Assembly (NCBI GenBank): GCA_040743155.1
Contig: JBFLJU010000001.1
Coordinates: 1,919,144 to 1,983,143, forward strand
Source: Cycloclasticus sp.
GTDB taxonomy: Bacteria > Pseudomonadota > Gammaproteobacteria > Methylococcales > Cycloclasticaceae
Reading direction: 5' to 3'
Length of the DNA: 64,000 nucleotides
The notes under the pieces were generated by a model that was not told the origin of the DNA, did no database searches, and saw only the letters and a list, made by a program, of their open reading frames with translations. Positions within the stretch are counted from its first letter, which is position 1. Each line of letters begins with the position of its first letter. The position numbers and the translations under genes were made by a program. This document shows, piece by piece, positions 43,838-49,417 of the stretch.

Positions 43838-43867
43838 AAAAAGCCCGTCAACTTGACGGGCTTTTTT
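43838..43867. terminator. Bidirectional terminator between rpmG and the Rieske gene
   Basis: Near-perfect palindrome: AAAAAGCCCGTCAA is followed by its complement TTGACGGGCTTTTTT. It gives a GC-rich stem with a T tract on both strands. It ends rpmBG on the plus strand, and on the minus strand it overlaps the last codons of the Rieske gene and ends the giant protein/Rieske transcript. Confidence 0.88.
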
Positions 43868-44246
43868 CGATATCTAATAAAGCAATATAAGACATCCCTT
43901 CTTGTTCAACAAACCGCAAAGGCTTTAAAAACTTACCACTGCATGGCCCAGCAAAACATTCTCCATCGTCTGTTTTAAACATCGCACCATGAATCGAGCA
44001 CTGAATATATAAGCCGGCTTTGGTCAAGAACTGATCTGGCGTCCAATTCAAAGGTGCGCCGGTATGCGGGCAACTGTTTTTATACGCACGTAATGTCTGA
44101 CCCTCTTCACGCAAAAGAAAACCACTACAGGCCCCTCGTTCGCCAAGGTCAATCTCAAACGCTCTAGAACTCAAACTTGCCAGCGAGCCCACTTCTACCG
44201 CTTGCACATAGTGAACCCCATCGACTTCTATTTCTTTTATTTCCAC
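43848..44246 (-). CDS. Rieske [2Fe-2S] ferredoxin-like protein
   Basis: 132 residues. Rieske cluster ligands are C59-P-H61 (KNSCPHTGAPLNW) and C83-S-I-H86 (QCSIHGAMF), spaced as in soluble Rieske ferredoxins. An additional Cys pair (C97, C102) follows in GECFAGPCSGKFL. There is no signal peptide or TM, so it is cytoplasmic. Its GTG start lies inside the last codons of the giant upstream gene (10-base overlap), implying coupled translation. The electron-transfer partner is unknown; co-expression with a rhodanese/cNMP-domain protein suggests redox or sulfur-linked signalling (inference). Confidence 0.9.
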   Translation of the reverse strand: MEIKEIEVDGVHYVQAVEVGSLASLSSRAFEIDLGERGACSGFLLREEGQTLRAYKNSCPHTGAPLNWTPDQFLTKAGLYIQCSIHGAMFKTDDGECFAGPCSGKFLKPLRFVEQEGMSYIALLDIEKSPSS

Positions 44247-47200
44247 CAGCTTTTTTTCTTTTCTTTAGTTGGTTCTTCCACTAGCACATCCTGATTCGCT
44301 AGCGTCTGCATAGACAGTATTTTTTTCTTCAATGCTAAATTCATTTTCTCGCTATTTTCTACTTTTGCCTGCATCGCTTGAATATCTTTTTCAGTTTGCT
44401 CTCTCACTAAATTCAATTCCGACTGAAGGGCTTTTAATTCATTATTCTCTTCTTCACTCGGCTCCTCATTCACATCGACAGACGCAGACTCCATTTTAAT
44501 TTCTAAATCAAGCAACATCGTCGACGCTTCGTCTAATTGTTTTTCCAGCTCTTTTATTCGCGTTTCATCCACCTGGTTTTCAACGTCTTTAGACGCTTTT
44601 CTCTCAACATCCGCAATACGACGTCGCATATTTGCATTTTCTTTGTCAGCGGCTAGCAACTTTTCTTCAATCGCCTCTTTAGCTTTTTCCTCTGCTTTTT
44701 GAGAAGCCACTATTTCGTCCACACGTTTTAACGAGCTCCTCGCCTCATCTTGCGCTGCTAACAACTGTTCTGATAGTTGACCCACCTTATCGTCGTTGTC
44801 TTTACCTGCATTCGCAAGAGTCTGCTGTTTTTCCTCTTCACTTCGTTTTAACGATTGCTCTAGAGAATCAATTTTCTGCTGTAAAACTTTTGCATCATCT
44901 TTATCCGACACTTGCCCTTGTTTTAACTGATCTAACTCTAAAATCGTTTTCTCTTTCTCGTTAGCCGCCGTAGACAAACTGAACTCTATTGTCTGGAGTT
45001 TATCACTAAGTACTGCAACCTCTGCCTTAGATTGCTGAAGCTTGCTGTCCAACTCGGCCAATTGCTCTTTGAATAAACCTCCTTCTGTTTGCTGCTCTGA
45101 TGACTGATCATCTAAATTGTTCGACAATTCAGCACAGCGTCGTTCAGTGCGCTCATTAGCAAGTTGTGCTTGTTCAAGCGCTTGTTTAGACAACGCCAAC
45201 GCTTCTTCCAATTCAATTTTGCTATTTACAGCGGCATCTATTTCCGTTTGTTTCGAGCCAAGCATTTCTTTATGTTCAGCCGATTCCACACGCGCTTTAT
45301 CTATCTCTTCCAACAACGCTTTTTGGTCGCCTGTTGATCCAGATAACGCTGTTTCCACGTCCAACATTTTTTGCTGCAAGGCATCAATTCCTGCTTGAGC
45401 TGAAACAAGATCCTCCGCACTGGATTTTTTCTGACCTTGAACTTTTTCTAATTCGCTCTCTAGCTCAGATAGCTGCTGAATGCGAACGCTTTCTGCCTGC
45501 TTGGCTTGCTCGACCAATGACAATTCTGCAGCTTGCAATTGAACTTGCGCCTGCTGCAACGCCTCAGACAACTTACCCAGCTCTGCCTCACCTTCTTGAT
45601 TTGCCTTAGATAGTTTTTGACCTGCTTGCGACAATTGCTCGTTTAATTGTTGCTGACCATGGTGCCCCTCATCAACTTGGCGCTGTGACAGCAATAACGC
45701 CTGCTGAGCCTCTTCTTTACTAGACATTAGCTCTTCTAGCGCCTGCTCAGTCTGAACTTTATTATCTAGTAGTAATTTAATTTGATGTTCAAGCTCAGCA
45801 ATTTGTTGCTCACGACTCTGCTCATCTGCCACTAACTGTTGAGATTGCTCATTGAGCACAGCCTGTGTTTCGTCAAAACGCGACTTCGCTTGCTGTAACG
45901 ATTGACTCAATTGCTCTTTCTCGACGTTTCCAGATTGAACAGTCTCATCAAGTTCTTTACGCACTTGATCTAGTTGCTCAGTCAATAGCCGCTGTTCGTC
46001 TAAACCAGTCTCTAACTGATTTTTCAATTCCAATATTGCCTGTTGATCCGCCTCTTTTTCTTTCGTGCTGCCACCCAGTTGCTGCGCTAAAACCGCCTTA
46101 CTTTCTAGCGCATTTTCAAGACTCAATTTAGCCTCAGATAAACGCTGTGTTAACTCGCTCTCCAAGGTTTCTTTACCGGAGGTAACAGCATTCAATGAGT
46201 CTTCAACGTTCACCACTTGCTGGCGCAACACTTCTGAGTCTTGCTCAAGTTTTCTTACATGCTCACACGAATCATCTAATTCCTTAGCAGTAGCACCTAA
46301 ATCAGCTTCTACCTTCTCGTAGCGTTGCTGCCAACTATCAGAGCTAGCAACCAAGTCACCTTCTTTTTCTCTTAGTTCTTCAACTGAAAGTAATGCTGTA
46401 CTCAGTTGATCTTTTAGCTCTGTTTGCTCGCTCGACAGACTCAACAACCCAGTATTTAATTGCTCTATTTCTCCCAGTGAAGTATCTCGCTCACTTATTA
46501 CCTTTGCCAGCTCCTCAGCCGAGTGCGCCAGCAGGCCCTCTTTTTCTGACAATGCCGATTCTAAATCTGAGTACTGTTGATTTAACTGCAAGGTGACAGT
46601 CTCAGCCTCATTAAGTTGCTGAGTAAATGCCGCAATATCTGCTTCCTTTTCACTAAGTACCGTGTTGCGGCTTCGATTGTCATCGCCTAAGGATTGAAGC
46701 TCCCCTTCTAAAGATTTAATCCGCTCCTGCTCTTTTTCTAGAGCACCCGTCCTTTCCTTTAGCTGTTGCGTTAAAACACCCCGCTCATCATCAAATTCTT
46801 TACGTTCAGCATCCAAGTCAGCCTGGAGCTTTTCCTCTGCTGTTTTGCTACTTTCTCGCGTTTGATCAAGTTCAGCCTCTACCTCTAACAAATTACTCTT
46901 TGTAGCTTCTTGCGATTGCTCTGAACCCGCTAAGCTCGAACGTAATTCACTTAACTGGGCGTTAAGCAACTGGGTATCGTCTTCGTTCTTTGAATGACTT
47001 TGAATTGAATCCCGGCCCAACTGCTCTATTTTCTGCTCCAAGTCAGCCTTAGCTTCTGACAGCACATCAATTTCATGCATTGCCTTATCAGCACCATTAT
47101 CCAACAGCTCTTTCTGGTGGATCAGCTCGGCCACTTCTTGCTTAGCGCCCGACAACTCGGTCTGCAGCCTTTCAGCAGCCTCTTCGCCCTTCTCTTGGTG

Positions 47201-48778
47201 ATTAATTAGGGCTGCTTTAAGCTCGCCTAACTCCTCATCCTTAACAACAAGCTCTGCGGCCAAGTCATTAAAGCCTTTTTCTGCATTGCCCGACTGCTCA
47301 ACAAAGCCGGCCAGCTCTTGCCGCGCTTGACTCAACGCCACTAGCTTGCCTTCAAGCTCTAACGTGAGAGCGGTGTTTTCCTCTTTTTCAGCCAACAACG
47401 TCCGAGTCACTTCCTCATCACACTCTTTATTACGCCGCTGAGTGAGCGCAAGTTCATCATCCACAAGTTGAGAAGATGCCTGCAGCTTAGCGACTAAATT
47501 TGATTGCTGTTCGTTTTGTTGCTGTAAGCCGTTACGCTCCAACTCCAACTTATTAAGCTGCTCATTTGACTGGGCACACAACTTTTCAAGCGCCATTATT
47601 TTGCTTTGCGACTCTTTAAGCCGTTCTGCATGTTGCTGATCGCTAGCTGCCGTACTCGCCTGCTCACCCGACTTAGCCGCTACCGTTTCTAATTCTGCAT
47701 CAGGCGAAATCGTTGCAGATTCATTTGAGGCCGCTACACTTTTACTTAAACCGGCCATGCCGCCTTTCAAAATCAACGCATTGAAACCAAACTTCAATAA
47801 TAAGAAAGCCGCCGCTTCGCTCGTCCTGCCTTTTTCACACACGAGCACTTGCAATTGATCATGACGCAGGTCAGAAATTTTCATCCGGAGGGAAAAAAAG
47901 GGAATATTGACACCGCCATCAATATGGCCGTTTGCGTACTCGTCAACACTTCTAACGTCTAGCCAATTTGCACCCGCGTCGACTTTTTGCAGCCCTTCAT
48001 CATAATTGACATATTGCAGAACAGGCTCTTTGACCAAGGCAATAAAGTTCGCTTTTGAAAGGCGCAGCATTTGCCCCTTACCCCTCATCCGAACCGTCAC
48101 GTTTCTCGGGTTACCAGACAACAAGGCATCCTCACCAAAGGCATCGCAACTGTGCAATTCGGCCAACTTTACTGGTCTCGCCCCTTCTGATGGTTGACGA
48201 ATAAGTTCGCAATCACCCGTTTTAATTATGTAGTAATAGTCAGCCTCATCACCTTGCTTAACGACTACTTCGCCAGATTCAAAAGCAATCTCTTCCATTT
48301 TCATCATTACTTTTTGCAAGTTTGATGCTGGTAAGCGCTGGAAAACCGGTGATTGCAACATCGTTGTCATCCAGTCGCCGCCCTGTTCTTCCACCTCATC
48401 GACCATATAAGTCTGGCTGATATCTTCTGGGCGATCCATGTCGAGCAGATAGGTAGCAATACGCACAATACGCGCTTTCGATTTGGTAACCGCTTTTACT
48501 TTACGAGGAATATGGTGCGCTATGGCAAAACGCGCAACTTCTGATCCAGTGACAACCGTTTCAACCTCCATTTCACCTGCATACAAGCCAACCATCCCGC
48601 TGATCAGATAAATGAATTCCTTTGCATCATCACCTTGCTCAAAAAGAACCGTTCCTTTCGCGCATTCTTCAATATGGCACTCATCACAAATACTATTCAA
48701 GCGCGCACCCGACAAGGTATTTAAAGGAATAAAATTCTTTAAAATATCTTCAGTACTTTGATGTAGTCGCGCGTTCAT
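44237..48778 (-). CDS. Giant cyclic nucleotide-binding/rhodanese/coiled-coil protein
   Basis: 1513 residues, cytoplasmic by composition. A degenerate cNMP-binding-like domain (about 15-110) is followed by a second with a good phosphate-binding cassette (F214-G-E-DALLSGNP-R225), then a rhodanese domain (about 257-345) with the active-site loop C314-E-K-G-R-T-S, and from about 375 to 1495 an almost unbroken Glu/Gln/Leu/Ser-rich coiled coil; the C-terminus is basic/aromatic (KKKSWWK). The cNMP plus rhodanese front part is a known small architecture; a coiled coil of about 1100 residues appended to it is not one I recognise. It could be a scaffold or filament controlled by a nucleotide or sulfur signal. 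First gene of a two-gene unit with the Rieske protein. Confidence 0.88.
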   Translation of the reverse strand: MNARLHQSTEDILKNFIPLNTLSGARLNSICDECHIEECAKGTVLFEQGDDAKEFIYLISGMVGLYAGEMEVETVVTGSEVARFAIAHHIPRKVKAVTKSKARIVRIATYLLDMDRPEDISQTYMVDEVEEQGGDWMTTMLQSPVFQRLPASNLQKVMMKMEEIAFESGEVVVKQGDEADYYYIIKTGDCELIRQPSEGARPVKLAELHSCDAFGEDALLSGNPRNVTVRMRGKGQMLRLSKANFIALVKEPVLQYVNYDEGLQKVDAGANWLDVRSVDEYANGHIDGGVNIPFFSLRMKISDLRHDQLQVLVCEKGRTSEAAAFLLLKFGFNALILKGGMAGLSKSVAASNESATISPDAELETVAAKSGEQASTAASDQQHAERLKESQSKIMALEKLCAQSNEQLNKLELERNGLQQQNEQQSNLVAKLQASSQLVDDELALTQRRNKECDEEVTRTLLAEKEENTALTLELEGKLVALSQARQELAGFVEQSGNAEKGFNDLAAELVVKDEELGELKAALINHQEKGEEAAERLQTELSGAKQEVAELIHQKELLDNGADKAMHEIDVLSEAKADLEQKIEQLGRDSIQSHSKNEDDTQLLNAQLSELRSSLAGSEQSQEATKSNLLEVEAELDQTRESSKTAEEKLQADLDAERKEFDDERGVLTQQLKERTGALEKEQERIKSLEGELQSLGDDNRSRNTVLSEKEADIAAFTQQLNEAETVTLQLNQQYSDLESALSEKEGLLAHSAEELAKVISERDTSLGEIEQLNTGLLSLSSEQTELKDQLSTALLSVEELREKEGDLVASSDSWQQRYEKVEADLGATAKELDDSCEHVRKLEQDSEVLRQQVVNVEDSLNAVTSGKETLESELTQRLSEAKLSLENALESKAVLAQQLGGSTKEKEADQQAILELKNQLETGLDEQRLLTEQLDQVRKELDETVQSGNVEKEQLSQSLQQAKSRFDETQAVLNEQSQQLVADEQSREQQIAELEHQIKLLLDNKVQTEQALEELMSSKEEAQQALLLSQRQVDEGHHGQQQLNEQLSQAGQKLSKANQEGEAELGKLSEALQQAQVQLQAAELSLVEQAKQAESVRIQQLSELESELEKVQGQKKSSAEDLVSAQAGIDALQQKMLDVETALSGSTGDQKALLEEIDKARVESAEHKEMLGSKQTEIDAAVNSKIELEEALALSKQALEQAQLANERTERRCAELSNNLDDQSSEQQTEGGLFKEQLAELDSKLQQSKAEVAVLSDKLQTIEFSLSTAANEKEKTILELDQLKQGQVSDKDDAKVLQQKIDSLEQSLKRSEEEKQQTLANAGKDNDDKVGQLSEQLLAAQDEARSSLKRVDEIVASQKAEEKAKEAIEEKLLAADKENANMRRRIADVERKASKDVENQVDETRIKELEKQLDEASTMLLDLEIKMESASVDVNEEPSEEENNELKALQSELNLVREQTEKDIQAMQAKVENSEKMNLALKKKILSMQTLANQDVLVEEPTKEKKKSWWK

Positions 48779-48997: not shown

Positions 48998-49417
48998 TTG
49001 AAAGCAAATAAATTCTCTTCTTCAAGCTTCTTTATTCGTTTATCTATCGCATTGGCACTCGTCTTTGCAAGCTACAACCCTGCTGGCATCTCTTATTACC
49101 ATTGGGCCATCACAAAAATACCGGACATTACACCCGTTATGGCTCTCGCAGGCCTAGTTTTATTGATTGGCTGGGTTGTTTATATACGCGCCACCCTTCG
49201 CTCACTCGGCATTATCGGCATTTCATTAGCAATCGCTTTTTTTGGCACCGTTTTTTGGATGATCATTGACTGGGGCATTATTGCAGCGGATAACACTCAG
49301 GTCGTTACTTACATCATTCAAACTATTTTATGTTTTATCATGGCAACCGGCATGTCTTGGTCACACATTCGCCGTCGTATGAGTGGTCAAATTGACGCGG
49401 ACGACGTTGACGAGTAA
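48998..49417 (+). CDS. DUF6524-like four-helix membrane protein
   Basis: 139 residues with about four TM helices. It starts at a TTG preceded by AAGGA with proper spacing. Typical segments are ALALVFASYNPAGISYYHWA at the N-terminus and WSHIRRRMSGQIDADDVDE at the C-terminus. A conserved proteobacterial family of unknown function. It ends 15 bases before degQ, so probably shares its transcript. Confidence 0.8.
   Translation: MKANKFSSSSFFIRLSIALALVFASYNPAGISYYHWAITKIPDITPVMALAGLVLLIGWVVYIRATLRSLGIIGISLAIAFFGTVFWMIIDWGIIAADNTQVVTYIIQTILCFIMATGMSWSHIRRRMSGQIDADDVDE

Follow-up and report, generated by a model that had tools for sequence, protein, structure and literature searches.

Tandem CNB domains with an FGE...PR cassette are known from the regulatory subunit of PKA (PKA-R) and from PKG, and single-domain and membrane-anchored rhodaneses such as PspE and YgaP have the rhodanese fold with an active-site Cys loop. 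Rieske ferredoxins, such as CarAc, T4moC, and the naphthalene dioxygenase ferredoxin, are characterized by the Rieske fold and a CxH...CxxH motif. The locus analyzed here lies in a window of 64,000 nucleotides, this being the whole stretch of DNA under study, from the complete 2.56 Mb genome of a Cycloclasticus sp. It contains a giant gene (44237..48778, minus strand) that encodes 1513 amino acids organized as a cNMP-cNMP-rhodanese head, a long coil, and a conserved C-terminus, and a gene for a 132-amino acid Rieske [2Fe-2S] protein (43848..44246, minus strand). The giant resembles PKA-R and PKG in its two tandem CNBs, but no kinase or inhibitor segment was found attached to them by Pfam, the first cassette is degenerate, and they are part of a fusion with a rhodanese and a coil. 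Its rhodanese shares the fold and the Cys loop with PspE and YgaP, and in the family of the giant it is often attached to a transmembrane (TM) helix, but it is fused to cNMP domains and has a long coil between it and any anchor. The Rieske protein has the ferredoxin fold and motif, and differs in a 21-residue spacer, a C-X4-C pair, and the lack of an adjoining oxygenase. With SUMF1/FGE-sulfatase proteins, the likeness is found in long relatives outside Cycloclasticus, which end in PF03781 behind a TM helix, but Pfam found no such domain in the window protein. A long coil is also common to SMC and cytoskeletal proteins; however, the giant contains neither an ATPase head nor a hinge and belongs to no known filament family, and an SMC relationship was rejected because the weak model match was to coil composition only, with no ABC ATPase head or hinge. 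A role in anti-phage defence was similarly discarded, as the coil showed only a weak match to LmuB (E 3e-4) and the Rieske protein gave none.

In the giant protein, only cNMP_binding (5.9e-24, in two stretches) and Rhodanese (4.9e-13) were above the Pfam threshold; a match to the zinc-finger-associated PRE_C2HC at the C-terminus was under the cut-off, and the helix-turn-helix of CRP/FNR transcription factors was not found by Pfam. The tandem cNMP-binding domains are followed by the rhodanese with Cys314, about 1080 proline-free coil residues, and the terminal KKKSWWK. The first cNMP-binding-like domain (aa 15-120; 48419..48736, minus strand) was recognized by alignment, as the second Pfam stretch, and by a PF00027 match of 30.7 bits in a search of the organism's own genome. 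It lacks the FGE glutamate, with a ARFALAHQIPRK-like sequence where FGExALxxxxPR was expected, and its cassette Arg, R92, is retained in 81 of 84 homologues. The second domain (aa 165-250; 48029..48286, minus strand; Pfam), whose nearest solved relatives are the CNB domains of PKA-R and PKG, has an intact phosphate-binding cassette (FGEDALLSGNPRNV), delimited in the 84-homologue comparison as FGEDALLSGNPR at aa 214-225 (48104..48139, minus strand), where Glu E216 is present in 83/84 and Arg R225 in 79/84 homologues. The rhodanese domain (aa 264-344; 47747..47989, minus strand) was assigned by Pfam and by its PspE and YgaP relatives, and bears the loop CEKGRTS, whose active-site Cys, C314, is found in 77 of the 84 homologues and is gone in seven. 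Structure prediction of the head gave two CNB-like domains and a rhodanese (mean pLDDT 82.8, pTM 0.56), with the tandem CNB modules of PKA-R and PKG as the best solved-structure matches by both sequence and fold; with this pTM value, the packing of the domains within the model is uncertain. These results agree with the first-pass annotation, which had described two cNMP modules, the second with an intact cassette, a rhodanese with its active-site Cys, and the KKKSWWK terminus. Alternatively, the cNMP domains could be structural remnants that bind no ligand, with the rhodanese acting as a sulfur carrier of general function, in line with the missing glutamate of the first domain and with the fact that single-domain rhodaneses usually act alone; we consider this quite improbable, since the second cassette is nearly invariant in the family, which is unexpected of a remnant. 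The same genome also contains a 752-aa frame with two cNMP-binding stretches (L198, G000:C1:1239923-1240564).

A frame of this size might be an artefact of assembly or annotation in which two genes were fused, or a programmed frameshift could join the giant and the Rieske protein, and a run of seven A is located just ahead of their overlap. We give these explanations practically no credence. The continuous giant frame followed by the overlapping Rieske gene was found in eleven Cycloclasticus genomes, this one included, which excludes the assembly fusion that the first-pass annotation had named as fatal to its reading, and the frameshift is ruled out by the lack of conservation of this A run at the junction. 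In two genomes, G007 and G008, the giant was cut by contig ends. The genome G015 (99% complete) contains the Rieske gene at the same place with the giant absent, and G016 (98% complete) has neither gene. The absence in G015 is nearly clean, as the full Rieske gene and the DUF6524 gene are only 67 nt apart (L116:5886-5954). In the window, the DUF6524 gene (48998-49417) is divergent from the giant, with 219 nt between them; the Cycloclasticus loci that were read have it in this position, but other families do not and have an abutting HtrA-type gene instead.

A profile search with the 350-residue head matched 170 of 369 sampled Gammaproteobacteria (46%) at E 1e-30 or better, and 17 of the 299 genomes in a phylum sample, 12 of these 17 belonging to the same class. 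The domains are each of a known kind, and literature searches covering open-access papers found no published description of their combination; thus, the fusion is as unfamiliar as the first-pass annotation had stated, but it is not singular. Members of the head family have total lengths between about 345 and almost 2000 residues, and the tails were absent, a short coil (about 100 residues), a coil with one TM helix, a coil of 340-940 residues without TM helix that often ends in HDQxLLDELA, or about 1000-1600 residues of coil, TM helix, and a periplasmic C-terminal FGE-sulfatase-like domain. The Lys and Arg residues around the TM helix of relatives were more abundant on its N-terminal side in 21 of 34 cases and after it in six, indicating that the head is probably cytosolic. 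Within the order of Cycloclasticus, a Rieske neighbour is missing from most of the shorter homologues; these are positioned between an HtrA-type protease gene and rpmG-rpmB, and this shared place identifies the head gene as a syntenic orthologue throughout the order. At the loci L173, L174, and L187, head-family paralogues of about 800-1300 residues with a C-terminal HDQxLLDELA are arranged as tandem or divergent pairs, with a small ORF of cluster d144 (about 70-130 aa) between them. The FGE-like domains behind the TM helix, as in L158:9733-15315 and similar loci, have four invariant Cys (in ANCFNCGS, QDCYH, and one more), and their alignment showed no Cys in the RGGS region, the site of the catalytic Cys pair in formylglycine-generating enzymes; they are perhaps ligand-binding rather than enzymatic. 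One long form of 1684 aa (L153:6654-11708, in G407) is accompanied by PfkB and Rieske genes, has no TM helix or FGE domain, and ends in KRTSLGRLFRRK; this basic and aromatic tail, like that of Cycloclasticus, is perhaps a convergent peripheral membrane anchor.

The coiled-coil spacer, delimited by sequence comparison (aa 421-1413; 44540..47518, minus strand), has a hydrophobic periodicity of 3.526 residues, with a power of 48 for residues 371-1440 versus a maximum of 10.2 in 300 shuffles. The longest proline-free run of the giant is 1080 residues, which would extend about 160 nm if it formed one continuous helix, in keeping with the span of over 100 nm that had been anticipated. Within Cycloclasticus, identity to the window protein was 58-84% for the head and 51-84% for the last 100 residues (44240..44539, minus strand; ending in KKKSWWK), but 18-52% for the coil, which has large indels and varies in length by about 415 residues. 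Two conserved ends, the head and the C-terminus, with a coil between them that has diverged in sequence and length, are the pattern of a spacer joining functional parts, and the C-terminal 100 residues are a candidate anchor or docking segment. The KKKxWWK end is mostly retained in the genus, with KKKGLWK or LWR in two cases, and its conservation may partly reflect the overlap, since the GTG start of the Rieske gene lies inside the TGG codons. No TM helix was found in the Cycloclasticus giant; the C-terminal membrane helices of relatives point to tethering. The first-pass annotation had proposed a cytoskeletal or polar scaffold. In such a reading, the coil would form filaments, at the pole or as a ruler of cell length, and the head would only regulate their assembly. 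This is an unlikely explanation: the coil is very long, periodic, and proline-free, and long coils recur across the head family, but the poor conservation and variable length of its interior are unlike a sequence-specific filament, many genomes have the head without a coil, and the coil of relatives is followed by a TM helix. A scaffold is possible and less well supported than a tether, and a spacer between a sensor head and a C-terminal anchor would be the better fit to the sequences.

The Rieske protein was identified by Pfam (2.9e-10), and its AlphaFold2 model (pLDDT 92.7) matched the folds of ring-hydroxylase Rieske ferredoxins and the Rieske domains of oxygenases. Alignments placed the cluster motif, C59-P-H61-X21-C83-S-I-H86, at 43989..44072 (minus strand); the usual spacer of Rieske clusters is 15-17 residues, and that of 21 found here is longer. 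The additional Cys pair that had been reported is real and corresponds to C97-X4-C102, within GxCxxGPCxG (43941..43958, minus strand). It was invariant in 18 aligned Rieske relatives that are linked to the giant or found at the same locus, and it was also present in the unlinked L054, indicating that it marks the Rieske subfamily and not the giant-Rieske pair. The overlap with the last codons of the giant was also as first described, and comprises 10 nt (44237..44246) in which the GTG start of the Rieske gene falls within the TGG TGG codons of the giant; it is retained across Cycloclasticus, at 10-16 nt. The bidirectional terminator said to close the pair corresponds to a terminator-like palindromic hairpin with A/T flanks (43838..43866), for which folding gave 13 bp on either strand, -19.4 kcal/mol, and a z of -5.5, and which was absent from the listing of the promoter/terminator scan. 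The hairpin extends into the last codons of the Rieske gene; on its other side, it faces and is shared with the convergent genes rpmB-rpmG, whose ribosomal identity was read from the sequence. One hairpin arm contains the codons for KSPS, the C-terminal residues of the Rieske protein here and in many other Cycloclasticus, so that the hairpin and the protein end use the same bases. No oxygenase gene was found beside the Rieske gene, whose immediate neighbours, conserved across relatives, are the giant, rpmG-rpmB, or PfkB.

Gene neighbourhoods were read for linkage, defined as a downstream Rieske gene on the same strand within 2.5 kb, and homologues were classed as long-tailed when the gene was complete and the tail had at least 600 residues. 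The Rieske gene was linked in 23 of 33 long-tailed homologues versus 0 of 48 others, a comparison in which length class is partly confounded with phylogeny, and 12 of the 22 long-tailed forms outside Cycloclasticus were linked. Comparison of head and Rieske matches added further linked genomes beyond that count (G304, G417, G274, G159, and G264), and G075 is a linked exception of 751 residues. The linked Rieske proteins of long-tailed relatives belong to the same subfamily. Genomes that keep both genes together, which the first-pass annotation had suggested seeking, exist beyond Cycloclasticus, and the linkage is older and more widespread than that annotation could have known. Homologues commonly lacking the coil or the Rieske neighbour had been named there as a refutation; many do lack a long coil or such a neighbour, which weakens the first reading, and about a third of the long-tailed forms have a giant without a nearby Rieske gene. 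Judged from these neighbourhoods, the linkage is old but partial. In many long-tailed relatives, a gene for a PfkB-family kinase (about 290 residues) lies between the giant and the Rieske gene, and no match to this partner was found elsewhere in the Cycloclasticus genome at 1e-10. The Cycloclasticus operon looks like a reduced form, without the TM helix, the FGE domain, and PfkB; as the tree is unrooted, it is a presumption that these were lost in Cycloclasticus and not gained in the other genomes.

We regard it as rather unlikely that the Rieske gene is an independent neighbour whose linkage is the inherited gene order at rpmB-rpmG and not a partnership. Consistent with such independence, the Rieske gene stands alone at the same locus in G015 and, in a sister family, in G025 and G031 (rpmB-rpmG); it sits elsewhere in many genomes; and the linked label required 14 changes on the head tree, indicating that linkage was lost or gained many times. 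However, the linkage occurs in two genomic settings, rpmB-rpmG/radC/coaBC and AAA-ATPase/TerB/HU, it is found almost only with long-tailed forms, phylogeny being a partial confounder, and the two genes overlap in Cycloclasticus.

Our working model, held tentatively and at somewhat less than even confidence, is a tethered cAMP-responsive rhodanese with a Rieske redox partner, in a gammaproteobacterial family that is widespread and seemingly uncharacterised; its ligand, its anchor, and the Rieske partnership are what we infer. A class I adenylate cyclase is encoded in the same genome (E 7e-102), where no class III enzyme was found, and cAMP is thus predicted to be available in the cell. This cAMP would bind the second cNMP domain and alter the adjoining rhodanese, where Cys314, as a persulfide, may carry or sense sulfane sulfur. 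As a long spacer, the coil would keep the head attached to the membrane or to some other fixed position; in Cycloclasticus the attachment would probably be to the membrane and made by the conserved C-terminus, in the role that the TM helix has in relatives. Translated together with the giant, the Rieske protein could be the redox partner of the tethered assembly, e.g., by reducing the persulfide or an oxidised thiol, and the fuller operon of other genomes would consist of a head-coil-TM-periplasmic FGE-like protein, the PfkB kinase, and the Rieske protein. In favour of the tethered sensor are the retained cassette and rhodanese residues, the cyclase, the spacer-like pattern of the coil, the TM helices of relatives, and the linkage and overlap of the Rieske gene. 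Several points stand against it: the Rieske gene occurs without the giant in the three genomes mentioned above, part of the long forms have no Rieske gene nearby, Cys314 is not universal in the family, the packing of the head domains is uncertain, a TM helix is absent from the Cycloclasticus protein, and the KKKxWWK end of this protein is perhaps partly fixed by the Rieske start. A more specific version, a signalling system widespread in Gammaproteobacteria, is doubtful; here, a cAMP-gated head that senses persulfide or redox state would be held by the coil at least 100 nm from its membrane anchor and act with the Rieske protein. In the full version, a sugar kinase would take part as well, as would an FGE-like sensor domain in the periplasm.

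Although the head is present in almost half of the Gammaproteobacteria sampled, we found no paper that describes it. If the proposed model is true, a single tethered protein would bring cAMP signalling together with sulfane sulfur and the redox chemistry of a Rieske protein, and a bacterial coil would serve as a tether of variable length. Since the tails form a natural series, i.e., none, short coil, TM helix, long coil, and FGE domain, what each part contributes can be tested directly. The more specific version, if true, would link cAMP, the sulfur redox state, and the cell envelope.
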